From contig NZ_FNQB01000001.1 in the NCBI RefSeq assembly GCF_900107455.1, positions 1,736,001 to 1,800,000 of the forward strand: DNA of 64,000 nt, read 5' to 3'. Made by a program: the position numbers and the translations under genes. Positions 8,636 to 20,190 of this stretch are shown here, one piece after another; within the stretch, counting starts at the first letter, position 1, and every line of letters starts with the position of its first letter. Below the pieces are notes generated by a model that saw only the letters and a program-made list of their open reading frames with translations, was not told where the DNA came from and ran no database searches. This stretch comes from Asanoa ishikariensis (GTDB taxonomy: Bacteria; Actinomycetota; Actinomycetes; Mycobacteriales; Micromonosporaceae).

Positions 8636-9327
8636 GCGAGCTACAGCGGCTGCGCGACGCCATGCGCGTGACCGAGCAGCCCAGCACCCTCGACCTGGCC
8701 GCCATCATGCGCGACGGGCGACGGCTGCGCCAGCGCCGCCGAATCGGGCGCACCGGAGGGGCGACGCTGGCCGCCTCGTTGGTCGCCGCGGTCGCGGTGG
8801 TCGCCGTCGGCCGGGACGGCCCGCCCGTGGTCGAGCACCATCCAAGGCCGGCCGCGGTCGCGCCGACACCGACGGCCACCTCTGAGTCGCGCAAGCCGGT
8901 CGGCGCGGTGGTCGACACCGGCATCCATTACGGTGCCGAGCAGCGCGTCTATTACTTCGTCGCGGTCGACGTGCCAGGTCTGCCCAAGGTGACGATCGGC
9001 CTGGCGGGCGGTCGTCGCCTGCCGAGCGGCGCGCTGACCACGGACTACCTGGTGAACGACGTCGAGGGCACCGACCGCAGCGCGGGCTTCCACGAGATCG
9101 GGCGTGACGAGTCGGGCGCGACACCGGCCGTGCCGACCTTCGGCTATTTTGTCGGCCCGGCCCAGCGAATCGTGGGTACGGTCGACGGCCGGAACGTCAA
9201 GGCCCAACTGGCCAGGTGGAGCGAGGACCCCCAGGTGGTGATCTTCTGGTTCGATCCGGCCGAGCTGGCGCCGGGCGTACCACTGGACGGGATCGTCGCC
9301 CGCGACAAACTCGATCGCCGGTTGTAA
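8632..9327 (+). CDS. Membrane-anchored partner of the ECF sigma factor
   Basis: A 231-residue protein with a cytosolic N-terminus of about 45 residues, one transmembrane segment (GGATLAASLVAAVAVVAV), a Pro/Thr linker, and an external domain of about 150 residues without recognised catalytic motifs. Proteins of this layout follow SigE-type sigma genes in actinobacteria and are often called anti-sigma-like, although a canonical zinc anti-sigma HxxxCxxC is absent. The 4-base overlap with the sigma gene implies coupled translation. A control role is inferred from position only. Confidence 0.7.
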   Translation: MSELQRLRDAMRVTEQPSTLDLAAIMRDGRRLRQRRRIGRTGGATLAASLVAAVAVVAVGRDGPPVVEHHPRPAAVAPTPTATSESRKPVGAVVDTGIHYGAEQRVYYFVAVDVPGLPKVTIGLAGGRRLPSGALTTDYLVNDVEGTDRSAGFHEIGRDESGATPAVPTFGYFVGPAQRIVGTVDGRNVKAQLARWSEDPQVVIFWFDPAELAPGVPLDGIVARDKLDRRL

Positions 9328-9428
9328 GTCTCGCCCCGCGCGGCTGTGGCGTTGCCCGCGTCCGGGCAGGCAGTATGTGGTTCTCGCTCTGGGTTACCGG
9401 AGTCAAGCTGGATAGAGTGCTTCTTGTA

Positions 9429-9438
9429 AAGCGCTTTC
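9429..9438. promoter_or_regulatory. LacI-type operator upstream of the regulator
   Basis: AAAGCGCTTT is a perfect palindrome with a central CG step, the shape recognised by LacI/GalR proteins. It lies 47 bases before the regulator start. A near-identical site precedes the esterase gene at 10524-10533. Two matching sites flanking one LacI gene support autoregulation plus control of the operon. Confidence 0.7.
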
Positions 9439-9485
9439 GAGGTCTTCGAAGCGGCGGAGCGGGGACGCTGGAGCGAGGCGGGGAC

Positions 9486-10478
9486 GTGGCGGCGGATCAT
9501 CGAGTCACCATCTACGAGGTCGCCGATCGCGCCAAGGTGAGCATCGCGACGGTGTCCAACGTCATGAACAAGCCCGATCGGGTCAGTCAGGCCACTCGCC
9601 AACGGGTGCTGGCGGCGGCCGACGAGCTCGGGTTCGTGCCGAAGGTGCAAGCGGTGACCTTGGCCCGGCGCGGGACGGGGCGGGTCGGCGTCATGGCCCC
9701 GTTCACGTCCTACGGGTCGTACCTGCGTCGCTTGTCGGGCGTGCTGACCGCGGCGGCCGAGTTGGAGATCGACGTCGTGGTCTTCGATCACGAGTCGGCC
9801 GCGCTGGCTTCTTCGCCGGTGTTGGCCAGCATGCCCATCCATGGGCGGCTGGACGGGCTGATCGTGATGGGCCTGCGGATCGAGGATGCCATCGCGGCCC
9901 GGCTTCGAGAGCGGAGTCTGCCGACGGTGGCGGTCGACGCCGACAGCGCGTTGTTCAGCCGAGTCGTGATCGACGACAACGAAGGCGGCCGACTGGCGGC
10001 CGCGCATCTGGTGGAGCGTGGGCACCGCCGCGTCGGGTATCTCGTCGAGCGGCAGGTCTCCGACTACGAGTCCCAGGCGATCCGGCGCTTGTCCGGATTC
10101 AAGCAGGTCATGGAGGCGGCCGGCGGCGAGGTGGTGATCGCGACCAGCGACAACTCCGTCGCCGACGCGCGGCGGGCGGCGGCGCTCCTGCTCGACGTGG
10201 TGGATCGCCCGAGTGCCGTCATGGCGCACCACGACGCACTCGCCGTCGGCGTGCTCCTGGCTGCCCGGGACCGGGAGCTGCGGGTTCCCGGCGATGTCGC
10301 GGTGATGGGCTTCGACGACGGCGAGGCGGCGACGGCGGCCGACCTGACGACGGTGCGGCAGCCGTTCGAGGAGTCCGGCAGCACGGCGCTCGGTGTGCTG
10401 CTCGGCCACATCGATGGCTCGGATCTGCGTTCGACGACCGTGCTCGACGTTCGCCTGGTCGAGCGCTCCACCACCTGA
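9486..10478 (+). CDS. LacI-family transcriptional regulator
   Basis: A 330-residue regulator. Residues 5-30 form the LacI helix-turn-helix and hinge (TIYEVADRAKVSIATVSNVM), followed by a periplasmic-binding-protein-like sugar domain ending in FDDGEAATAADLTTVRQP. Such proteins dissociate from operators when a sugar or sugar derivative binds. The frame is open further upstream, but GTG at 9486 has GGAGCGAGGCGGGGAC before it and places the HTH at the normal distance. The gene precedes an esterase, sugar ABC importer and SGNH hydrolase, its likely targets. Confidence 0.93.
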   Translation: MAADHRVTIYEVADRAKVSIATVSNVMNKPDRVSQATRQRVLAAADELGFVPKVQAVTLARRGTGRVGVMAPFTSYGSYLRRLSGVLTAAAELEIDVVVFDHESAALASSPVLASMPIHGRLDGLIVMGLRIEDAIAARLRERSLPTVAVDADSALFSRVVIDDNEGGRLAAAHLVERGHRRVGYLVERQVSDYESQAIRRLSGFKQVMEAAGGEVVIATSDNSVADARRAAALLLDVVDRPSAVMAHHDALAVGVLLAARDRELRVPGDVAVMGFDDGEAATAADLTTVRQPFEESGSTALGVLLGHIDGSDLRSTTVLDVRLVERSTT

Positions 10479-10523
10479 CCTTGATCGGGTACTTTGGCCC
10501 CTGAGCTGCGCGAGCACTCAATA

Positions 10524-10533
10524 AAAGTGCTTT
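10524..10533. promoter_or_regulatory. LacI-type operator upstream of the esterase operon
   Basis: AAAGTGCTTT differs from the palindrome at 9429-9438 only at one central base. It lies 68 bases before the esterase ATG and inside the AT-richest stretch locally. A second arm pair, AAGTG at 10525-10529 and CACTT at 10542-10546, surrounds it. It is the likely site through which the LacI protein controls the downstream genes. Confidence 0.65.
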
Positions 10534-10601
10534 AATGGAAACACTTGACAGGCCTTCTGCGATGAGGTTTCGTGCTTGTAACACGAGCGCGGGAGGCGTC
10601 G

Positions 10602-11555
10602 ATGGAGCTGGACGAGGCGGTGCGGACGTTCCTGTCCACCAAGCCGGACTCCGGCGACCCGGACGCGCCGATCGTCCAGCGGCGCAAGGCCATCCACGCC
10701 GGGACCGACACGCTGTTCGCGATGTTCGGCCGGCCGGTCGCGGCGGCGCACAGCGAGCAGGACGTCGAGATCGCCGTGGCTGGTGGCCAGATCCGCCTGC
10801 GGGTGTATCGCCCGAGCGACGAGATCGGCCTGCCGATCCACGTCTTCCTGCACGGCGGCGGTTTCTGGCTGGGTTCCATTGACGAGGACGTCAACCAGGC
10901 GATGTGCCGGGACCGCTGCACGGGCGCCGGCTGTGTAGTGGTCGCGGTGGATTACCGGCTGGCCCCTGAGCACCGCTTTCCGGTCCCGGCGGAGGACTGC
11001 TACGCGGGTCTTCGTTGGGCCGTGGAGCACGCCGTCGAGATCGGCGGTGACCCGGCGAACGTGTCAGTCGGCGGGGTCTCCGCGGGCGCGACCCTGGCCG
11101 CGGCGGTCGCGTTGCTGGTCCGCGAGCGCGGGACGGCGGACTTGCGTCTGCAACTGCTCGAAGTACCGGCGCTGGACCTGACCCTCGACAGCATGCGCGC
11201 ATCCGGCGTCGGCGATGACTTCGGCATCACCGTCGACGACATGAGGTTGTGCCAGCAGCTCTACCTGCCGTCCCCCGAGGACGCCTGGAGCCCGCTCGCG
11301 TCACCGCTGCGGGCGCAAGACCTCACCGGGTTGCCGAACACCAGGATCATGACGGCTCAGTTCGATCCGCTGCGCCACGACGGCGAACAGTACGCGGATC
11401 GGCTGCGGGCGGCCGGCGTCCCGGTCTCCTACAGCTGCTACCTCGGTGCCGTACACGGGTCGCTCGCTCTCACCGGCACCTGGCCCGCCGCACGCACCTG
11501 GCAGGACGACCTTCTGCAGTGCCTGCGCGACGCGCACTTTCCTTCGCACGCCTGA
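10602..11555 (+). CDS. HSL-family alpha/beta-hydrolase (acyl esterase)
   Basis: A 317-residue serine esterase of the hormone-sensitive-lipase group. The oxyanion motif is HGGGFW, the nucleophile elbow GVSAG (usually GDSAG), the acid is in AQFDPLRHD and the base in AVHGS. It hydrolyses short-chain esters in the cytosol. ATG at 10602 has GGGAGG seven bases upstream and is preferred to an in-frame GTG at 10572. It is the first structural gene after the LacI operator and precedes a sugar importer. Deacylation of an imported acylated sugar is a reasonable inference. Confidence 0.9.
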   Translation: MELDEAVRTFLSTKPDSGDPDAPIVQRRKAIHAGTDTLFAMFGRPVAAAHSEQDVEIAVAGGQIRLRVYRPSDEIGLPIHVFLHGGGFWLGSIDEDVNQAMCRDRCTGAGCVVVAVDYRLAPEHRFPVPAEDCYAGLRWAVEHAVEIGGDPANVSVGGVSAGATLAAAVALLVRERGTADLRLQLLEVPALDLTLDSMRASGVGDDFGITVDDMRLCQQLYLPSPEDAWSPLASPLRAQDLTGLPNTRIMTAQFDPLRHDGEQYADRLRAAGVPVSYSCYLGAVHGSLALTGTWPAARTWQDDLLQCLRDAHFPSHA

Positions 11556-11629
11556 ACCCACCTATCCCCACACCCCTCAACCGGCGGTGATCCTCGCCGC
11601 CGGAAGTTCCGCGATCCTGGAGGCCTGAC

Positions 11630-12985
11630 ATGGCTCACGGACCCACCGGCCGACCCCTATTGGCCGCGCTCACCCTTGCCGCACTGGCGGCCACCGCCGC
11701 GTGCAGCGCACCCGGCGGCAACTCCGACACGACCGGCGCGAATGCCAGCGCACCCGCCGTCGCCGCCGCGACCTGCGGCACCGCGCCGGTCACCCTGAAG
11801 GGCTACTTCGAGACGGGCTTCCCGCTGCCGAAGGACCTTTCCGCCGAGTTCACCAAGCAGTTCCCGAACGTCAAATGGGACATCCGCGAGGACCAGTTCG
11901 CGGTGATCACCCAGAACGCTCCGCGCGTCCTCGCCGACGACCCGCCGGATCTGATGCGCCTCCCGCAGGTGTCCGAGCTCGTCAAGGATGGCTTGCTGAA
12001 GAACCTCGACGGGTACGCGCAGGGCACCGGCTGGGACAAGTGGCCGGCCTCGCAGCTCGAGCAGATGCGGGTCGGCGCGAGCGGCCAGCGGGGCGACGGT
12101 CCGCTCTACGCGATGGGCCTGAACTTCAGCATGACCGGCCTGTTCTACAACAAGAAGCTGGCGTCGCAGATCGGCATGACGCAGCAGCCGGCCACGCTGG
12201 CCGACCTCGATGCCGCGCTGCAGAAGGCGAAGGACGCCGGCATCACGCCGATCGACCAGTTCAACGGTGGCGCCACCGGCGGTCTGGCGTTCCCGCTGCA
12301 GAACCTGATGACCGCGTACGGCGAGCCTGGACCGATCAACGACTGGATCTTCCAGAAGCCCGGCGCCACCATCGACACGCCGACCAACCTCCAGGCCGTG
12401 CAGCACCTGGATAAGTGGATCAAGGCGGGCTACTTCGCCAAGGACATCAACTCGCAGGACTACGCGACGATGATGAGCCGCTTCATCGGCGGCAAGGCCC
12501 TGTTCATGTTCAACGGCGACTGGGAGTCGGGCAATCTCGACAAGCAGATGGCCGGAAACGCCGGCTTCCTGCTGATGCCGCCCGCGCAGGCCGGCGGCAA
12601 GCAGGCCGCGATGTCGGCGCCGCTGACGTACGGCATCAGCAGCAAGGCCAAGAACGCCGACTGTGCCGCGTTCTTCCTGAACTGGGTGGCCACCAACCAG
12701 CAGGCCCGCGATATCGCGGTGAAGGTCGGCGGATCGCACCCGATGGGTCCGGCGGACGCCTACATGCCGGCCGTCCAGGAGGGCACCGTCACGGCGAGCA
12801 CGCTCGCCGCCGGCGCGACCATCGGCAAGGACAACGGCGCCATGGACTTCATCGCCAACGCGACCGGCGCCATCTACGCGAAGGGCTGGACGCCGCAGTT
12901 GCAGAAGCTGGCGGCCGGTCAGCAGACACCGGACGGCTTGCTCAAGTCGGTGCAGAAGGACTACGAGACCCAGGTCAAGAACTAA
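11630..12985 (+). CDS. Sugar ABC importer, substrate-binding lipoprotein
   Basis: A 451-residue family 1 extracellular solute-binding protein. A lipoprotein signal ends at Cys25 in LAATAAC. The mature part has the two-lobe fold with aromatic and acidic patches typical of oligosaccharide binders (LFYNKKLASQIGM, and FMFNGDWESGN). It captures the sugar outside the membrane and hands it to the two permeases that follow. Its TAA stop overlaps the next ATG by one base. Confidence 0.95.
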   Translation: MAHGPTGRPLLAALTLAALAATAACSAPGGNSDTTGANASAPAVAAATCGTAPVTLKGYFETGFPLPKDLSAEFTKQFPNVKWDIREDQFAVITQNAPRVLADDPPDLMRLPQVSELVKDGLLKNLDGYAQGTGWDKWPASQLEQMRVGASGQRGDGPLYAMGLNFSMTGLFYNKKLASQIGMTQQPATLADLDAALQKAKDAGITPIDQFNGGATGGLAFPLQNLMTAYGEPGPINDWIFQKPGATIDTPTNLQAVQHLDKWIKAGYFAKDINSQDYATMMSRFIGGKALFMFNGDWESGNLDKQMAGNAGFLLMPPAQAGGKQAAMSAPLTYGISSKAKNADCAAFFLNWVATNQQARDIAVKVGGSHPMGPADAYMPAVQEGTVTASTLAAGATIGKDNGAMDFIANATGAIYAKGWTPQLQKLAAGQQTPDGLLKSVQKDYETQVKN

Positions 12986-13896
12986 TGTCGGCACCGGTCA
13001 CGGGGCGGCGTGCGCGACGCGCGCGCCGCCCTCGGGCGGTGTGGCTCGGCTGGCTCTTCGCGGCGCCGGCCATTGTCATGTACGGCACGTTCGTCCTCCG
13101 CCCGCTCCTGCTGACGGTGCAGTACTCGCTGTACGACTGGAACGGCATCGGCCCGTCGACCTGGGTCGGTCTCGACAACTACCGGCGGCTGCTGACCGAC
13201 TCGGAGCTGTTCGCCACGATCGTGCACGCCTTCGAGCTGATCGTGTTCTTCAGCTTCGTCCCGGTGCTGCTGGGCCTGTTCGTGGCGGCCACCATCCGGA
13301 ACATCGCCGCGAGCCGGCTGGCCACCGTGGCCCGCACGGTGCTGTTCCTGCCCCAGGTCATCCCGCTGGTCGCGGCCGGCATCATGTGGAGCTGGCTGCT
13401 CTCCTCGACCGGCCTGGCCAACGAGTTGCTGTCGGCCGTCGGCCTCGACAGCATCACCCGCGCCTGGCTCGGCGAGTTCGACACCGCGCTGCCCGCGGTC
13501 GGGGTGATCGGTGCCTGGGTCCTCGTCGGCCTGTGCACGCTGCTGCTGCTCGCCGGGATGAGCAAGATCGACCCGGCGTTGTACGAGGCGGCCCGCCTGG
13601 ACGGCGCCGGGCCGATCCGCGAGTTCTTCTCGATCACGCTGCCCAGCCTGCGCCAGGAGATCGGCGTGTGCGTGACGGTGACCGTGATCGCCGCGCTCGC
13701 CAGCTTCGACATCGTCTACATCGCCACGCAGGGCGGGCCGGGCAACTCCACCATGGTCCCCGGCCTGGAGATCTACTACCTGGCCTTCTCCGAGCGCGAG
13801 GTCGGCATGGCATCGGCACTCGCGGTCGCACTGGTCCTGCTCGTCCTCGCCGTCGTCCTTCCGATTCAGCGCCTCACCAGGGACGGATCCCGATGA
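12985..13896 (+). CDS. Sugar ABC importer, permease 1 (MalF/UgpA type)
   Basis: A 303-residue inner-membrane permease with six predicted transmembrane helices. The EAA loop that docks to the ATPase reads YEAARLDGAGPIREFFSITL. ATG at 12985 overlaps the binding-protein stop (TAATG). A basic Arg-rich N-terminus precedes TM1. It pairs with the next gene to form the channel. Confidence 0.95.
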   Translation: MSAPVTGRRARRARRPRAVWLGWLFAAPAIVMYGTFVLRPLLLTVQYSLYDWNGIGPSTWVGLDNYRRLLTDSELFATIVHAFELIVFFSFVPVLLGLFVAATIRNIAASRLATVARTVLFLPQVIPLVAAGIMWSWLLSSTGLANELLSAVGLDSITRAWLGEFDTALPAVGVIGAWVLVGLCTLLLLAGMSKIDPALYEAARLDGAGPIREFFSITLPSLRQEIGVCVTVTVIAALASFDIVYIATQGGPGNSTMVPGLEIYYLAFSEREVGMASALAVALVLLVLAVVLPIQRLTRDGSR

Positions 13897-14717
13897 TCGC
13901 CACACGTCGCGAGACCCTGATCGGGCGACTCCTGCTCGTCCTGCTGATGGCGATCACCATCGTGCCGTTCATCAGTCTGTTCGTCACGGCCCTGCACCCC
14001 TCCGGGACGTACCCGTCGGGACTCTCCTGGCCGGACAGCCCGCAATGGGGCAACTTCCTCGACGCCTTCCGGGCCGCGAACATGGGCAAGCTCCTGCTGT
14101 CCAGCAGCCTCATCGTGCTCGGGGTCGTCCCGGCCTCGCTGCTGTTCGGCACCCTGGCCGGCTTCGCCTTCGGGCACCTGCGGATGCCCGGTCACCGGAT
14201 CGGCTTCCTCGTCTTCGTGCTGGGCCTCACCCTGCCGTTCGAAGGCATCATCACACCGCTGTACTACCAGGTCCGCGACATGGGGCTGCTCAACACCCGC
14301 TGGGCGATCATCCTGCCGCTCATCGGGCTGTTCATGCCCTTCTCCGTGATCTGGATGCGAGCCCACTTCGTCACCATGCCCGACGATCTCTCGGAGGCCG
14401 CGCGCATCGACGGCGCCAGCACGTGGCAGCTCTTCTGGCGGGTGCACGTACCGCTGGCCATGCCCGCCCTCTCGTCGTTGGCCATCCTGCTGTTCCTGTG
14501 GACGTGGAACCAGTTCCTCCTCGCCATCGTCCTGGTCGACGATCCCGCGAAGCGGACCATGGCCGGTGCGCTCGGCGCGTTCCAGGGGCAGTGGGGCACG
14601 GACATTCCGCTGCTCTGCGCCGGCGCGCTGCTGATTCTGGTGCCCACGCTGACCGTCTTCCTCATCTTCCAGCGCCGCTTCGTCGCGGCGCTGCTGCAAG
14701 GTTCGATCAAGGGCTGA
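13893..14717 (+). CDS. Sugar ABC importer, permease 2 (MalG/UgpE type)
   Basis: A 274-residue second permease with six transmembrane helices. The EAA motif is SEAARIDGASTWQLFWRVHV. It overlaps permease 1 by ATGA. No ATPase gene accompanies the set; actinobacterial sugar importers of this type commonly share a single MsiK-like ATPase encoded elsewhere. Confidence 0.95.
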   Translation: MIATRRETLIGRLLLVLLMAITIVPFISLFVTALHPSGTYPSGLSWPDSPQWGNFLDAFRAANMGKLLLSSSLIVLGVVPASLLFGTLAGFAFGHLRMPGHRIGFLVFVLGLTLPFEGIITPLYYQVRDMGLLNTRWAIILPLIGLFMPFSVIWMRAHFVTMPDDLSEAARIDGASTWQLFWRVHVPLAMPALSSLAILLFLWTWNQFLLAIVLVDDPAKRTMAGALGAFQGQWGTDIPLLCAGALLILVPTLTVFLIFQRRFVAALLQGSIKG

Positions 14718-14746
14718 TACATGAACGCACCAAACCGGATCGAGCG

Positions 14747-15604
14747 GTGGCCCACGTGATCACCGATCGAAGCTATACGGACGACGAACGCCGGCACTTC
14801 CTGCGCTACACCCGCACCCAGTCGTGGCCGATGCTGCAACGCTTCCCGGTCGACGACGACCTGCACGCCGAGTTGCTCGCCCAGATGCTGGCCAGCACGC
14901 CGGAGACCATCCGCGCACTGCTTCATTCGCTGCGCGACGAAACCCGCGCAGCGGCGACCCAGATGCTGGCCGACGACCACTTTCGCAACGCCGTCGCCGC
15001 CCTGCCGTTCGGGCCGGAAGACCGGATCGCCGCCGTCGGCGACTCGATCACGGCTGACCGCCTCGGCTGGTTCGAGCTCCTCGCGGCCTCGATCGACCTG
15101 ACCGGCGTACCCAAGGCAACCTTGATCAATCTCGGGATCAGCGGCAACACCACGGCGGACGTGCTCGAACGCTTCGATCTGCTGGAAGCGGTGCGGCCGA
15201 CCCGGGTGCTGCTGATGCTCGGCACCAACGACGCCCGCGCACACGGCCGGACCGGCCGCTACCGGATGGCCACCACGGCGGAGACCGGACGCAACCTGCG
15301 CGCACTGGTGAACCTCATCACCCAAGACCTGAACGCAGTCGTCACGATCATCACGCCACCGGCCGTCAACCAACAACGCATCGACACCTTCTTCAACGAC
15401 GCCCCGCTGCACTGGCAGGCCGCCGCGGTGGCCGAAGTGGCCGGAGTCGCCCACCAGACGGCACCGGGCGCCCTCGACCTGCACAAGGCCATTCACGCCC
15501 GCGGCACAGAGGACCTACTGGAACCCGACGGCGTCCATCCGACCCTCGCCGGTCAGCGGCTCATCCTGGCCAGCATCGTGGATCATCTCCGCACCGTCGC
15601 TTGA
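14747..15604 (+). CDS. SGNH/GDSL hydrolase
   Basis: A 285-residue esterase. SGNH block I is GDSIT, the Gly block is NLGISGNT, the Asn block is GTND and the catalytic Asp-His block is DGVHP. There is no signal peptide, so it is cytosolic. A helical N-terminal extension of about 100 residues precedes the catalytic domain. It follows permease 2 by 29 bases and starts at GTG 14747 (or GTG 14756). Together with the HSL esterase it suggests that the imported sugar carries two ester groups or is acetylated; xylan or pectin fragments are candidates, not shown. Confidence 0.85.
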   Translation: MAHVITDRSYTDDERRHFLRYTRTQSWPMLQRFPVDDDLHAELLAQMLASTPETIRALLHSLRDETRAAATQMLADDHFRNAVAALPFGPEDRIAAVGDSITADRLGWFELLAASIDLTGVPKATLINLGISGNTTADVLERFDLLEAVRPTRVLLMLGTNDARAHGRTGRYRMATTAETGRNLRALVNLITQDLNAVVTIITPPAVNQQRIDTFFNDAPLHWQAAAVAEVAGVAHQTAPGALDLHKAIHARGTEDLLEPDGVHPTLAGQRLILASIVDHLRTVA

Positions 15605-15625
15605 TGCCGCGCTCACAATCGCCGG

Positions 15626-15780
15626 GTGGAGCCGCCGCCCTCCAGTGTGGACGCGATTGATCTGGCAACGGTGCCCGCGCTGGCGCGCGGCGGGCTCCTG
15701 GAGCAGGCGGGCATCCGCCGCACTCGCTTCCATGACCTACGTCACTCAGGCGCGAGCATCTTCGATGCCCGACGTAGGGG
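15626..15780 (+). pseudogene. Tyrosine-recombinase C-terminal remnant
   Basis: The frame reads LLEQAGIRRTRFHDLRHSGA, which carries the RxHxLRH box II core of tyrosine integrases, then degrades into an unrelated Arg-rich tail. The second catalytic Arg, the HxLRH His/Arg and spacing are recognisable; the final Tyr box and everything N-terminal are gone. It lies about 55 bases before a tRNA-Lys 3' fragment. This is the typical int-att layout of an actinobacterial integrative element. Confidence 0.65.
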
Positions 15781-15791
15781 TCGGAAAGGGT

Positions 15792-15822
15792 TCAGGGACA
15801 GTCCCATGTGGGCTGTCCCTGA
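15792..15822. terminator. Strong hairpin, probable terminator
   Basis: TCAGGGACAG and CTGTCCCTGA form a perfect 10-base stem, continued inside by CCCA/TGGG with one bulged T. There is no T-tract. It lies between the integrase remnant and the tRNA fragment, where the terminator of a lost integrase gene would be. Confidence 0.55.
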
Positions 15823-15832
15823 GGGTTGCTAC

Positions 15833-15857
15833 TAGTGCGCCGCCGAGAACCCGCAGA
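15833..15857 (-). repeat. tRNA-Lys 3'-end fragment (candidate att remnant)
   Basis: Read on the minus strand, GCGGGTTC, then two bases, then GGCGGCGCAC matches the tRNA-Lys at 18924-18999 over the anticodon-stem edge and the acceptor/discriminator, with about 13 bases of the T arm deleted. Orientation is the same as the tRNA gene. The fragment and the tRNA therefore form an imperfect direct repeat about 3.1 kb apart. Confidence 0.55.
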
Positions 15858-16526
15858 ACATCCCAAACCGATGATCAGCAACTGGGCAAGATCGTGATTG
15901 AACAACGCGTCACGCTGTCATCCAGGTAGAACGGCGGGACCCGATCACGCCGACGAGCGGCGGACCAGTCGAACTCCACCGGCGCGTGAGCCGGACTCGC
16001 GGATTCGATCTGTCCGCATCGAAGATGCCGGAAGGGGCGACGGTTGTAGCGCGATCATGGAGCAGGCTCGAACCCTCGGCGGGTCACGCCAAGCTTGGGA
16101 ACGGGATTTGATCAACGCTGACCTGGTCGTTGTCGCCGTGTCGTGGCGTTTGCCCAGCTAGCGGCTCGGCTTCGCTAGCGTCGGGAGGCGGCGCCAAGGA
16201 CATGGCTTGCGCCGTCGCGGGGGTCCGGTGCACCTTTGCGCGGAGTGATCGGAACCAGTCACCTGCCGACGCAATCGGCCGCCGCCGTTCGACAAGCGGC
16301 GGCGGGACACCATCGTGCATTGCCGGGATGGTAAGCATCGTGATCGTGCAGAGTCGGTGAGCACCGTCATTTGCCGACCCGCCCCGGTCGGGCTCTGACG
16401 TTGTTGACGACCGAAGTGGCGAAGAGCATGCCGCCGACCAAACCTTCTCATCGTGACGTAAGCCGCGTTTCGCTGCGCCGACCGCGGGTAAGCGGCCAAC
16501 GTGGGCTCCATCAGGGCGGAAGTGTC
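15858..16526. other. Gene-poor stretch within decayed island
   Basis: I find no convincing gene, RNA or repeat in these 670 bases. Codon-position GC bias is weak in all six frames. Several short open frames lack ribosome-binding sites and resemble nothing. It looks like decayed element DNA. Confidence 0.5.
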
Positions 16527-16835
16527 ATGAAATCCTGGTGGGAGCACAGCGCTGGCGGTAAGCGTGGTGTGCCTGCTCGGAAGGCAGCACAAGCTTCGCG
16601 CCGCGCTCATGCTCGGTCGAAGCGGCGGGCGGTCGAATGGGCGCGCGGCCAGCGCGGGGAGCCCCGGCAACCGTCGGGGCACCACTCACCGGCGTCGGGC
16701 CGAGGCCTCGTGAGCAGCTCGGTCGCGCTGGGAAGTCTGCCGCGATCGGCGTCTTCGCGCGCTCCGCCGGCAGGCGGTGACCGCCTCACCGAACGGGCGG
16801 CGTCGATGCGGGGTTCCGGAGGGGACGACAGGTGA
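16527..16835 (+). CDS. Small basic protein, unknown
   Basis: A 102-residue Arg/Lys/Ser-rich frame starting MKSWWEHSAGGKRGVPARKA. ATG at 16527 has GGGCGGAAG upstream. The first 45 residues carry about 15 basic residues; the rest is low-complexity Ser/Gly/Arg. It ends in GTGA, overlapping the start of the histone-like gene by four bases, which is the best argument that it is real. A nucleic-acid-binding role is plausible from charge alone. Composition could also arise by chance in GC-rich DNA. Confidence 0.4.
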   Translation: MKSWWEHSAGGKRGVPARKAAQASRRAHARSKRRAVEWARGQRGEPRQPSGHHSPASGRGLVSSSVALGSLPRSASSRAPPAGGDRLTERAASMRGSGGDDR

Positions 16836-18250
16836 GTCAGGGTACGAGCGGTAACGGAAACGGTTCAACCAGCGGCAAGTTGGTGGAGGGTCTGCGGGAC
16901 TACGTGGGCGCGCTCGTCGACCATGCTGTGTCCGCCGTGAATGAGCGAATGGGTGAATCCCGCGGCGACGACGGTTCCCGCCATGGCAGGGAGTCGATCA
17001 ATGAGGGCAGCTCGCCGGCAAATGCGGTTACGGACGACGGCGTGATCCGCGACAGCGAGGTGGTCTCCCAGGACGACCGCGCGGACGACCAGAATTCGGA
17101 AGAGGGCGGCCAGGCCAAGGGTGAGAAGGCCAAGAACGAGCCAGCTCGGGACGACCAGACCGTGGAGGACGAGTCGCCCGACGAGGAACCAGCCAAGGTG
17201 GCTACCAAGACCGCGACTGAGGTGGCGAAGGAGACCGCGGCTCGAGAGTCAGCGAGGACCGCGACCGAGGTGGCGAAGGAGACCGCGGTCCGAGAGTTAA
17301 CCAGGACCGCGACCGAGGTGGCGAGGGAGACCGCGACCGAGGTGGCGAAGGAGACCGCGGCTCGAGAGTTAACCAGGACCGCGACCGAGGTGGCGAAGGA
17401 GACCGCGGTCCGAGAGTCAACCAGGACCGCGACCGAGGTGGCGAAGGAGACCGCGACCGAGGTGGCGAAGGAGACCGCGACCCGAGAGTCAGCGAGGACC
17501 GCGACCGAGGTGGCGAAGGAGACCGCGGTCCGAGAGTCAACCAGGACCGCGACCGAGGTGGCGAAGGAGACCGCGACCGAGGTGGCGAGGAAGACCGCGA
17601 CCCGAGAGTCAACCAGGACCGCGACCAAGGCGGCGAAGAAGACCGCGACCGAGGTGGCGAAGGAGACCGCGACCGAGGTGGCGAGGAAGACCGCGGCCCG
17701 AGAGTCAGCGAAGACCGCGACTGAGGTGGCGAGGAAGACCGCGGCCCGAGAGTCAGCGAAGACCGCGACTGAGGTGGCGAAGAAGACCGCGGCCCGAGAG
17801 TCAGCGAAGACCGCGACCGAGGTGGCGAAGAAGACCGCGAACCGAGAGTCAGCGAAGACCGCGACCAAGGCGGCGAAGAAGACCGCGACCGAGGTGGCGA
17901 AGGAGACCGCGACCGAGGTGGCGAAGAAGACCGCGGCCCGAGAGTCAGCGAAGACCGCGACCGAGGCGGCGAAGAAGACGGCGCCTCGAAAGTCAACTAG
18001 GACGGCGACCGAGGCGGCGAAGAAGACGGCGCCTCGAAAGTCAGCCAGGACGGCGACCAAGGCGGCGAAGAAGACGGCGCCTCGAAAGTCAGCCAGGACG
18101 GCGACCAAGGCGGCGAAGAAGACGGCGCCTCGAAAGTCAGCCAGGACCGCGACCAAGGCGGCCAAGAAGACGGCGCCTCGAAAGTCAGCCAGGACCGCGA
18201 CCAAGGCGGCCAAGAAGACGGCGCCTCGAAAGGCCGCGAAAAGCGGCTAG
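16832..18250 (+). CDS. Histone-H1-like Lys/Ala repeat protein with charge gradient
   Basis: The 472-residue protein has three parts. An N-terminal amphipathic helix spans about residues 15-42 (KLVEGLRDYVGALVDHAV), an acidic Asp/Glu/Ser linker runs to about 120, and tandem repeats fill the rest. Repeats are 16 residues made of two 8-residue halves. Early copies read TATEVAKETAARESAR and are near neutral; late copies read TATKAAKKTAPRKSAR and are strongly basic, like histone H1 tails and actinobacterial Hup/HupS-type tails. Such tails bind and compact DNA. The start is GTG with GGAGGGGA. Nearly every Lys codon is AAG. It may tether DNA to a partner held by the N-terminal helix; that is inference. 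Confidence 0.8.
   Translation: MSQGTSGNGNGSTSGKLVEGLRDYVGALVDHAVSAVNERMGESRGDDGSRHGRESINEGSSPANAVTDDGVIRDSEVVSQDDRADDQNSEEGGQAKGEKAKNEPARDDQTVEDESPDEEPAKVATKTATEVAKETAARESARTATEVAKETAVRELTRTATEVARETATEVAKETAARELTRTATEVAKETAVRESTRTATEVAKETATEVAKETATRESARTATEVAKETAVRESTRTATEVAKETATEVARKTATRESTRTATKAAKKTATEVAKETATEVARKTAARESAKTATEVARKTAARESAKTATEVAKKTAARESAKTATEVAKKTANRESAKTATKAAKKTATEVAKETATEVAKKTAARESAKTATEAAKKTAPRKSTRTATEAAKKTAPRKSARTATKAAKKTAPRKSARTATKAAKKTAPRKSARTATKAAKKTAPRKSARTATKAAKKTAPRKAAKSG
17197..18247 (+). repeat. Tandem 48-bp coding repeats (24-bp half units)
   Basis: About twenty degenerate 48-base units, some with an extra 24-base half, encode the 16-residue repeats. The last five or so 48-base copies differ by only a few bases, whereas the first ones vary at codons for Ala/Val/Thr and Ser/Leu. 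This indicates recent amplification at the 3' end and older copies at the 5' end. Copy number is likely to vary between strains and to be collapse-prone in assembly. Confidence 0.9.
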
Positions 18251-18314
18251 CCGGCTACTACTCCGCGGCTGGCGCCCGGGGCGGCCTGCGTTGCGTCACG
18301 GTAGCTGCTTCCAC

Positions 18315-18830
18315 GGTCGCATTCTCGATACACCTACTACCGGTGCAGCCCGAACCCGACGAACCATGGTCACTTGCCGTGGTTCAAAGACCATCCACCC
18401 GCCGCGATGATCGCGGAAGACCGGCTCGTCGAACCGTTGGCCCGGTTCTTCGCTCAACGCATCTTCGGCACCGGCCGCGAGATCTTCCTCGCTGCGGCGG
18501 CCGACGCCGATCGCAGCGATGACTCGGTGGACACTCGCACGAGCGTGGCGCGAAGCCATCCAACGCAGGTTCGCGTCGACTGTGGCCGAGCAGCGCAAGG
18601 AGAAACAGCTTCTCGAACAGGCTGGCCGAGAGCGGTCAACCTCAACGCGACGCGACGTCAGTGTCTTCGCCGACATCCCCCAGGGCGACATCGACATAAC
18701 GCGACTCTCCGACGACCAGCAACGTCAGGTCTACGAGGCGTTCCAGCTGGAGCTCCGCTACAACACGATCCGCAACGAGGCCACGATTCGCGTCACGGTC
18801 ACCAGCGGCACTGCCGCGATGCTTGCTGCG
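18315..18830 (+). pseudogene. Large serine-recombinase C-terminal remnant, frameshifted
   Basis: Two frames together resemble the C-terminal half of a serine integrase. The first reads RYTYYRCSPNP, a half zinc ribbon with one Cys pair partner missing, then HPPAAMIAEDRLVEPLARFF, the usual HPxxxxxREDxLxxxLxxF segment. After about 18515 the match continues in another frame: a coiled-coil stretch with Arg/Glu and then YEAFQLELRYNTIRNEATIR, the terminal beta segment. The catalytic Ser domain is absent. It ends about 95 bases before the tRNA-Lys gene. Confidence 0.6.
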
Positions 18831-18923
18831 GGGGACGGGGGAGACCGGCCACATTCCGAGACCAAGAAGGGCGGAGACCGAAACTCAGGTTTCGGTTCCC
18901 GCCCAACAGGTTTGGAATGCTTT

Positions 18924-18999
18924 TGGTGCGCCGCCAGGGACTCGAACCCCGAACCCGCGGATTAAGAGTCCGCTGCTCTGCCAGTTGAGCTAGCGGCGC
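18924..18999 (-). tRNA. tRNA-Lys (anticodon CTT), CCA encoded
   Basis: The minus strand folds into a full cloverleaf. The acceptor is GCGCCGC/GCGGCGC, the D arm GCTC/GAGC, the anticodon stem GCGGA/TCCGC around CTCTTAA, the variable loop GGGTT and the T arm CGGGG-TTCGAGT-CCCTG, ending ACCA. The 3' end faces the decayed island at lower coordinates, the usual side for integration. A fragment of this 3' end lies at 15833-15857. Confidence 0.97.
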
Positions 19000-19076
19000 T
19001 CGATCGGCAACGACACGTACGTTAGCACGCGCCCAGAGGGATCTTCCAACTGGTGGTGAACGACCGGCCGAACGCC

Positions 19077-19957
19077 TCAAACACCCTCATATATCTCCAC
19101 GTAGTGTCGGTAGTTGTCGGCGATCAGGCCGATCACCTCGGCCTCGGTCATCTCCCTTGCCAGGAGGGCCTGGAGCGGGTCCTGCCAGATGCTGCGGCCG
19201 ATCGCGAAGCCCAGAGAAACCCCGCCGGTGCCGCTGCCCGCAACCAGCGGTCCAGGTCCTCCGGCGGCGCGTCTCGGCCCAGCACCACGCACTGCACGTT
19301 GTTGCGACCGCCCTGCCGGGCCGTTGCCAGCACCTGGGTGGCGTCCGCGGTCGTGTTCAGGCCCTCGATCTTCCAGATGGCCGGCTCCACGCCGGCGGCC
19401 TGCATCTCGCCGATGATCCGTACCGTCAGCTCGGGTCGAAGATCGTCGTCGTATCCCGCCGACTCCTCGGCCGGGGTCGGTGGGACCAAGAGCTCCAGCA
19501 GGAGGTCCCGACCCGCACTGGTGAGCACCGACGAGACGGTCGCCAGGTCGTCCATCTGGCGCGTGCGGGCCCGTACCTCGAATGACGGGTTGTCGCGCAC
19601 CAGGATCTTGACGTAGCGCGGGTCGAACGCCTCCACGTGTTCCAGCCAGCGGCCGTCGCCCAGGTTGCCGTACTCCAGGGTGAACCATTCCTGGTCCGAT
19701 TTTTCGATCGGCATGGCCAGGGTGATGCCCGTCGCCTTGGCCGCTCGGGCCACCTGCTCGCCGTAGCGTTCGTCGACCAGGACCGCGGCTTTCGACCGGT
19801 CGGCGCCCCGGCTGAGGGCATCGACCAGGCCCTGGTAGATCAGGTTCTTTCCATCGACGATCCGCTTGGTCTCGGCGGGGTTCGGATCACCCTTGATCTT
19901 GTACACCTGGGTGGCGAACGAGTCCCGGTGATCCATCGCCAGTAGATAGAGTGCCAT
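19077..19957 (-). pseudogene. DUF2090 (IolC aldolase-like) protein, single-base frameshift
   Basis: The protein starts MALYLLAMDHRDSF at ATG 19957 with GGGGGAA before it. It keeps family landmarks such as VLVDERYG and IWKIEGL. At the four-base G run read from 19223-19220 the frame breaks. The expected ending, GFAIGRSIWQDPL through IADNYRHYVEIYEGV, continues in the next frame. Adding one G restores a continuous 293-residue protein. DUF2090 domains form TIM barrels fused to or near IolC kinases in inositol and sugar catabolism. No inositol genes flank it. Whether the break is real or a sequencing error cannot be told here. Confidence 0.75.
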
Positions 19958-20190
19958 GATTCCCCCGAATGCCACCAAATCCACCCTCAGCATGCACAAA
20001 GGGGCGCTGACCTGGGATTACTTCGGAGAAATAGCCGCTACTGCGAGGTTCCGACCGGTTCGCGCCCCAGGGTTACCCATGTGGCTGAGGCGCGGAGTGG
20101 ACGCCATCTGGCACCCTGCCGGATCGAGGTACATAGCGGGTGTGGCTGGGGCACGATGACCCCAAGGTTGCGAAGGAACGGGGACATCTA

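Follow-up and report, generated by a model that had tools for sequence, protein, structure and literature searches.

tRNA genes are classically targeted by tyrosine integrases. Integration there by serine recombinases is known as well but is called rare by Ghinet et al. (2011, PMC3218068), who describe, among the actinomycete integrative conjugative elements (AICEs), eight mycobacterial serine recombinases at one tRNA-Leu, and who name the serine recombinase of the filamentous phage phiRSM1 at a tRNA-Ser. Here we describe a locus in the 9.09 Mb genome of Asanoa ishikariensis (G000), situated on contig C2 in a stretch of 64,000 nucleotides that we refer to as the window (assembly GCF_900107455.1, contig NZ_FNQB01000001.1, positions 1,736,001 to 1,800,000; all plain coordinates below are those of the window). 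A 3.1 kb remnant at about 15845-18925 appears to have entered this locus at the extreme 3' end of tRNA-Lys(CTT), with an exchange of the tRNA terminator.

Like the Mycobacterium tRNA-Leu elements (PMC3218068), the locus ties a serine recombinase to tRNA-gene insertion in an actinobacterium; unlike that single tRNA-Leu group, the Micromonosporaceae group to which the window recombinase belongs is found at tRNA-Lys, Leu and Arg. The phiRSM1 enzyme, too, is a serine recombinase at the 3' end of a tRNA gene, but unlike the window group it is termed resolvase-like in the title of the reference given for it. Its host is Ralstonia, which belongs to another phylum. With tRNA-targeting tyrosine-integrase islands the locus shares a functional target and a displaced 3' end that marks the far boundary, whereas here the shared block is confined to some 10-12 bp at the extreme tip of the tRNA, and the adjoining recombinase is of the serine type. 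No account of such a Micromonosporaceae group was found in the literature searched, which left subscription journals mostly uncovered, and its novelty is unproven.

The displaced tRNA-Lys tip and two terminators

The intact tRNA-Lys(CTT), the putative attachment target, was confirmed by ARAGORN at 18924-18999 on the minus strand; it is the sole tRNA in the window and its 3' end points left. It scores 65.3 bits with the Rfam tRNA model, and across 15600-19100 the gathering score was reached by the tRNA alone. Five congeners (G001-G005) served as the comparison set within the genus. In G001, G002 and G003 the tRNA-Lys is directly joined to a terminator hairpin of the form CAGGGAC..GTCCCTG, termA, and these genomes show the empty site in relatives. 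In the window this original-type terminator lies about 3.1 kb from the tRNA (15785-15832, minus strand; fold z -4.0, 0 of 200 shuffles equally good), and next to it stands a displaced tRNA-Lys 3' tip of about 10-12 bp, the candidate recombination core (15833-15844, minus strand). Positions 15785-15844, that is termA and then the tip GTGCGCCGCC, agree with G003 in 50 of 60 bases, ungapped and with a score of 40, and the G003 reference has terminator and tip contiguous with its intact tRNA-Lys. The highest score in 200 mononucleotide shuffles of 9331-18900 was 16, and ten control stretches of the window scored 10-14.

The place beside the tRNA is now occupied by a second hairpin, termB (18861-18923, minus strand; fold z -2.35, 1 of 200 shuffles equally good), which we read as element-borne. 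Its distribution within the genus is narrow: termB is found at the tRNA-Lys of G000, G004 and G005 and once more on contig C33 of G005, while two other matches of 16-19 bp (E 0.3-0.6) are at chance level. An intact tRNA at one end and a displaced 3' copy at the other is the layout of a tRNA-targeted element, with a copy that amounts to some 10-12 bp plus the terminator. The first-pass annotation of the window had proposed a decayed insertion at tRNA-Lys, and the comparison with congeners upholds this, although the boundaries differ from those proposed. The displaced tRNA end that it described is likewise real, as the 60-base match to G003 attests, but no more than about 10-12 bp, at 15833-15844, is tRNA sequence.

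Beyond the tip follows unit1 (15845-15925), which we interpret as a P'-like distal arm of the element and which has five other copies in the genus. The exact core is present at L103 (G000 C3), L104 (G000 C2) and L108 (G005 C33); L106 (G001 C16) carries it with one change, and the start of L110 (G000 C6) is more diverged. The left neighbours of the copies differ, and at G005 C33 the neighbour is termB, so that termB, core and unit1 are joined. A 13-base deletion inside the tRNA fragment had been put forward to explain the stretch following GTGCGCCGCC; this stretch is unit1, and the deletion was rejected because five of the six copies have the sequence in common.

The junction on G005 C33 probably lies about 23 kb from the tRNA-Lys of that genome, a distance estimated across a contig gap, since positions 1-17388 of C33 are syntenic (89%) with 254848-274250 of G004, whose tRNA-Lys is at 249443. 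A recombinase remnant adjoins the tRNA-Lys in G005 as well, and the two ends seen in the window thus seem to be retained in G005, set wider apart.

Our preferred reading, which we consider probable, is a serine-type integration at the tRNA tip with a terminator swap and later decay. An integrative element encoding a large serine recombinase would have joined its attachment site (attP) to the extreme 3' end of tRNA-Lys, within about 10-12 bp TGGTGCGCCGCC. The tRNA would have been spared and would have received termB from the element, while the native terminator and the tip would together have been displaced to the distal boundary of the insert. Decay would then have removed the catalytic two thirds of the recombinase and left an interior that now consists of an open reading frame (ORF) for an H1-like protein and a genus repeat. 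That this recombinase performed the integration, that termB arrived with the element and where exactly the crossover fell are points that we infer from the arrangement of the parts.

Serine recombinases at tRNA ends

The recombinase remnant adjoining the tRNA (18329-18830, plus strand) had been recognised in the first-pass annotation, and tblastn searches with intact relatives confirmed it as the broken C-terminal third of a large serine recombinase. One piece, 18329-18490, is 72% identical to residues 475-528 of an intact 741-residue recombinase from a Dactylosporangium metagenome-assembled genome, and a second, 18543-18830, is 51% identical to residues 582-677 of the same protein. The catalytic N-terminal two thirds are missing, and with them the catalytic serine; the consensus of nine relatives contains GRTSTDD, which we take to be the catalytic motif. 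Two intact relatives were scanned and both match the Pfam family Recombinase above its cut-off, with Resolvase and Zn_ribbon_recom each above it in one of them. The window remnant alone, which holds only the C-terminal third, gave no Resolvase, Recombinase or zinc-ribbon match, and NCBIfam had no match to the window fragments.

Homologues of the recombinase occur in 26 of 300 family genomes scanned, our own counted, and in named records of Micromonospora, Actinoplanes, Dactylosporangium, Rhizocola, Virgisporangium and Allorhizocola. Twenty-nine of the 31 matches outside our own genome were fetched (loci L054-L082). In ten of these an intact convergent tRNA stands at the 3' end of the recombinase, 87-149 bp past the matched stretch: tRNA-Leu-CAA at L056, L072 and L077, Leu-TAA at L058, Arg-CCG at L061, L062, L065, L079 and L082, and Arg-CCT at L066. 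A scan of named genomes yielded 11 recombinase loci, one of them new and again accompanied by tRNA-Arg-CCG (L209). Other loci hold smaller pieces: an Arg-CCT-like piece lies beside the recombinase at L055, GTGCGCCGCCGGGTACCCG follows a terminator-like stretch at L080, and at L081 the T-arm-like GGGGTTCGAACCC, judged by eye, is found farther along. At the locus of the closest intact recombinase (G061, 741 residues; L054) a window-like arm is followed by GTGCGCCG.

In each of the ten relatives with an adjoining tRNA, the reading frame of the recombinase continues without a stop into the antisense tRNA or right through it; the window ORF 18519-18965 also runs open into the tRNA. Within the final 150 bp, all 11 cases counted (the ten relatives and the window, with the decayed G005 copy left out) keep the recombinase frame open, against 6 of 22 for the other two forward frames, a contrast that is inflated because these 150 bp are partly conserved coding sequence and all three forward frames are open in the window itself. 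If the pattern is real, integration would change the C-terminal tail of the recombinase: in the window the tail reads ...WCAARDSNPEPAD from the antisense tRNA, versus ...CAAENPQNIPNR in the same frame of unit1. We tentatively suggest, as a possibility short of an even chance, that large serine recombinases of the Micromonosporaceae have specialised for the extreme tRNA 3' tip, where the element need supply only a new terminator, and that a gene spanning its own attachment site swaps its C-terminal tail and may thereby mark the integrated state.

Should our reading be true, a group of serine recombinases at the tips of Lys, Leu and Arg tRNAs would provide a second route to insertion without tRNA damage, in which a terminator is brought along instead of half a tRNA. 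It would also make available integrases with sites conserved throughout the bacteria. For the reading of genomes, the locus shows that the mark of a tRNA island can be as slight as 10-12 bp and a relocated terminator, and such a mark escapes searches for long tRNA-end repeats.

Counter-evidence, rival accounts and the left-hand insert

Several observations weigh against serine-type integration at the tip. At L064 and L069, 44 and 42 bp of tRNA-Arg(CCG) lie beside the recombinase, and these junctions resemble tyrosine-type sites more. No tRNA piece was recognised at 13 of the 29 homologue loci, two of which (L067 and L068) are truncated by a contig end, too early to judge. Displaced tRNA ends were sought in 20-80 kb fetched from G006, G106, G285, G124, G087 and G103, in a run that also took in four further short loci and two loci without a tRNA, and none was convincing; the best candidate, in G285, agreed in 15 of 16 bases (E 0.22). 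Between G006 and G106 the recombinase end is the only part shared at E 1e-10, and at tRNA-Lys no element was found that is intact and combines the recombinase, the two ends and a displaced tip. The stretches fetched around the unit1 copies L103, L104, L106 and L108 are devoid of tRNAs, and L110 has only a tRNA-Pro, 2.8 kb off; since copies occur without a neighbouring tRNA, unit1 may in part be a dispersed repeat. In G005 the DNA between the two ends is no clean element, as it holds chromosomal genes of other congeners: both the segment C33:1-2023 and the gene that ends at 17388 belong to contiguous chromosomal sequence in G000 and G003. G004, finally, has termB at its tRNA, yet the recombinase remnant is absent from the 40 kb fetched.

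The rival accounts turn largely on the sequence to the left of termA. In G003 a gene whose counterpart ends at window position 9327 lies about 60 bp from the tRNA, whose 3' end joins it, and 9328-15784 is therefore another, separate insert relative to G003. It comprises a sugar ABC transporter (named by eye from its ORFs), an SGNH hydrolase (identified by Pfam) and, at its right end, the tyrosine-integrase scrap. Comparison with G002 shows 9408-15613, the ABC transporter and SGNH block, to be 90.3% identical over 6221 bp to G002:C1 at 5.45 Mb; the right flank of the tRNA is 84.5% identical between G000 and G002, below the value for this block. The first-pass annotation had predicted that in an insert-free relative the tRNA 3' end would abut the DNA beside the SGNH gene, a prediction at odds with the junction in G003.

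The stretch 15626-15775 (plus strand), annotated at first as the C-terminus of a tyrosine integrase, is a weak but plausible scrap of such an enzyme carrying box II: 24 residues are 71% identical to a Streptomyces tyrosine recombinase (E 2e-3), next to a Pfam E of 0.31, PHROG integrases at E 0.1-0.4 and a PHROG family of unknown function at E 0.004. The sole box-II motif in a scan of the window (15731) falls within it, so that the insert itself contains none. Because it lies beyond the native-type terminator the scrap is outside the tRNA insert, and for the same reason the earlier claim of two or more integrations at this site does not follow from it. It may be an older, accreted element.

One rival account builds on this last idea. 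A tyrosine-integrase element would have come first, bringing the ABC transporter and SGNH genes together with a termA-like terminator (the hairpin at 15785-15832), and the serine element would have entered at the tRNA later. The scrap does point at hairpin and core, and this order matches the one at the tRNA-Lys of G034 (L051), where a tyrosine integrase is present. Moreover, tRNA-Lys(CTT) is a hot spot of classic tRNA insertions in other genera, with displaced 3' ends of about 43-50 bp; the copies in G008, G034 and G013 (L050, L051 and L052) measure about 43-45 bp. In G013 two displaced tRNA-Lys 3' ends stand in a row. The 83% identity of 15785-15844 to G003 leaves this account undecided, because the left flank of G003 is equally 83-90% identical, the right flank of the tRNA being at 94-95%. 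Against it, a second displaced tRNA tip was not found near 9328-9408, and the hairpin is, by eye, closer to the terminator of G001-G003 than to that of G034. We regard the accretion as unlikely.

Very unlikely, in our view, is the account of the first-pass annotation, an insertion by a tyrosine integrase through the usual tRNA-Lys site of about 45 bp, with the displaced copy shortened by a later deletion. Displaced ends of about that length do exist in the same three genomes of other genera, and GAACCCGC after the core is reminiscent of tRNA sequence, but the recombinase adjoining the tRNA is of the serine type and GNGAACCCGCAGAAC follows the core in five of the six unit1 copies; with the same post-core sequence in so many copies, and with different neighbours, a private deletion does not account for it. 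The least credible account treats unit1 with its core as a dispersed repeat of intergenic DNA that came to the tRNA tip in another way, with recombinase remnant and terminator change due to an unrelated event: the unit1 copies are intergenic without an adjoining tRNA and the neighbouring unit2 is a dispersed repeat, but three of the six unit1 copies stand directly behind a tRNA-Lys-type terminator (termA, termB and, by eye, at L103), which chance insertion would not yield.

Interior of the insert and the neighbouring gene

Inside the insert lies an ORF of 472 residues with H1-like Lys/Ala/Thr repeats (16832-18250, plus strand), taken from the ORF list. Homologues that are 76-80% identical to it in DNA sequence occur in G002, G004 and G005 (L119, L120 and L121) with unshared flanks, as if this gene, which four genomes of the genus thus possess, moved alone. 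Its N-terminal part has a ratio of non-synonymous to synonymous substitution rates of 1.1-1.3 (97-120 codons aligned), a value without sign of purifying selection, and we therefore do not call it maintained cargo. The first-pass annotation had listed it as cargo left in the island; with the flanks unshared and this ratio, that part of its account is uncertain.

Between unit1 and this gene lies a copy of unit2 (16038-16168), a dispersed repeat of about 100 bp with matches in all six genomes and the T-arm-like GCAGGTTCGAACCC in many copies; further copies in G000 are at C2:2257394, 2262485, 2263965 and 2277925, among others. In G002 the last 26 bases of unit2 stand directly 5' of the H1-like gene region.

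As to the type of the element, none of the scanned ORFs of the window insert matched the AICE genes TraB/FtsK or Rep. The relatives were sampled through 20 of the 51 non-recombinase ORFs listed for five of them, which gave no FtsK or Rep match, while one pair matched T2SSE/T2SSF; the neighbouring genes of the relatives are mixed, with no clear AICE among them.

On the other side of the tRNA is a DUF2090 gene (19077-19999, minus strand), which is absent at the corresponding place in G003 and G004. Relative to an open frame of 299 residues in G002, the window gene carries a frameshift close to its 3' end.

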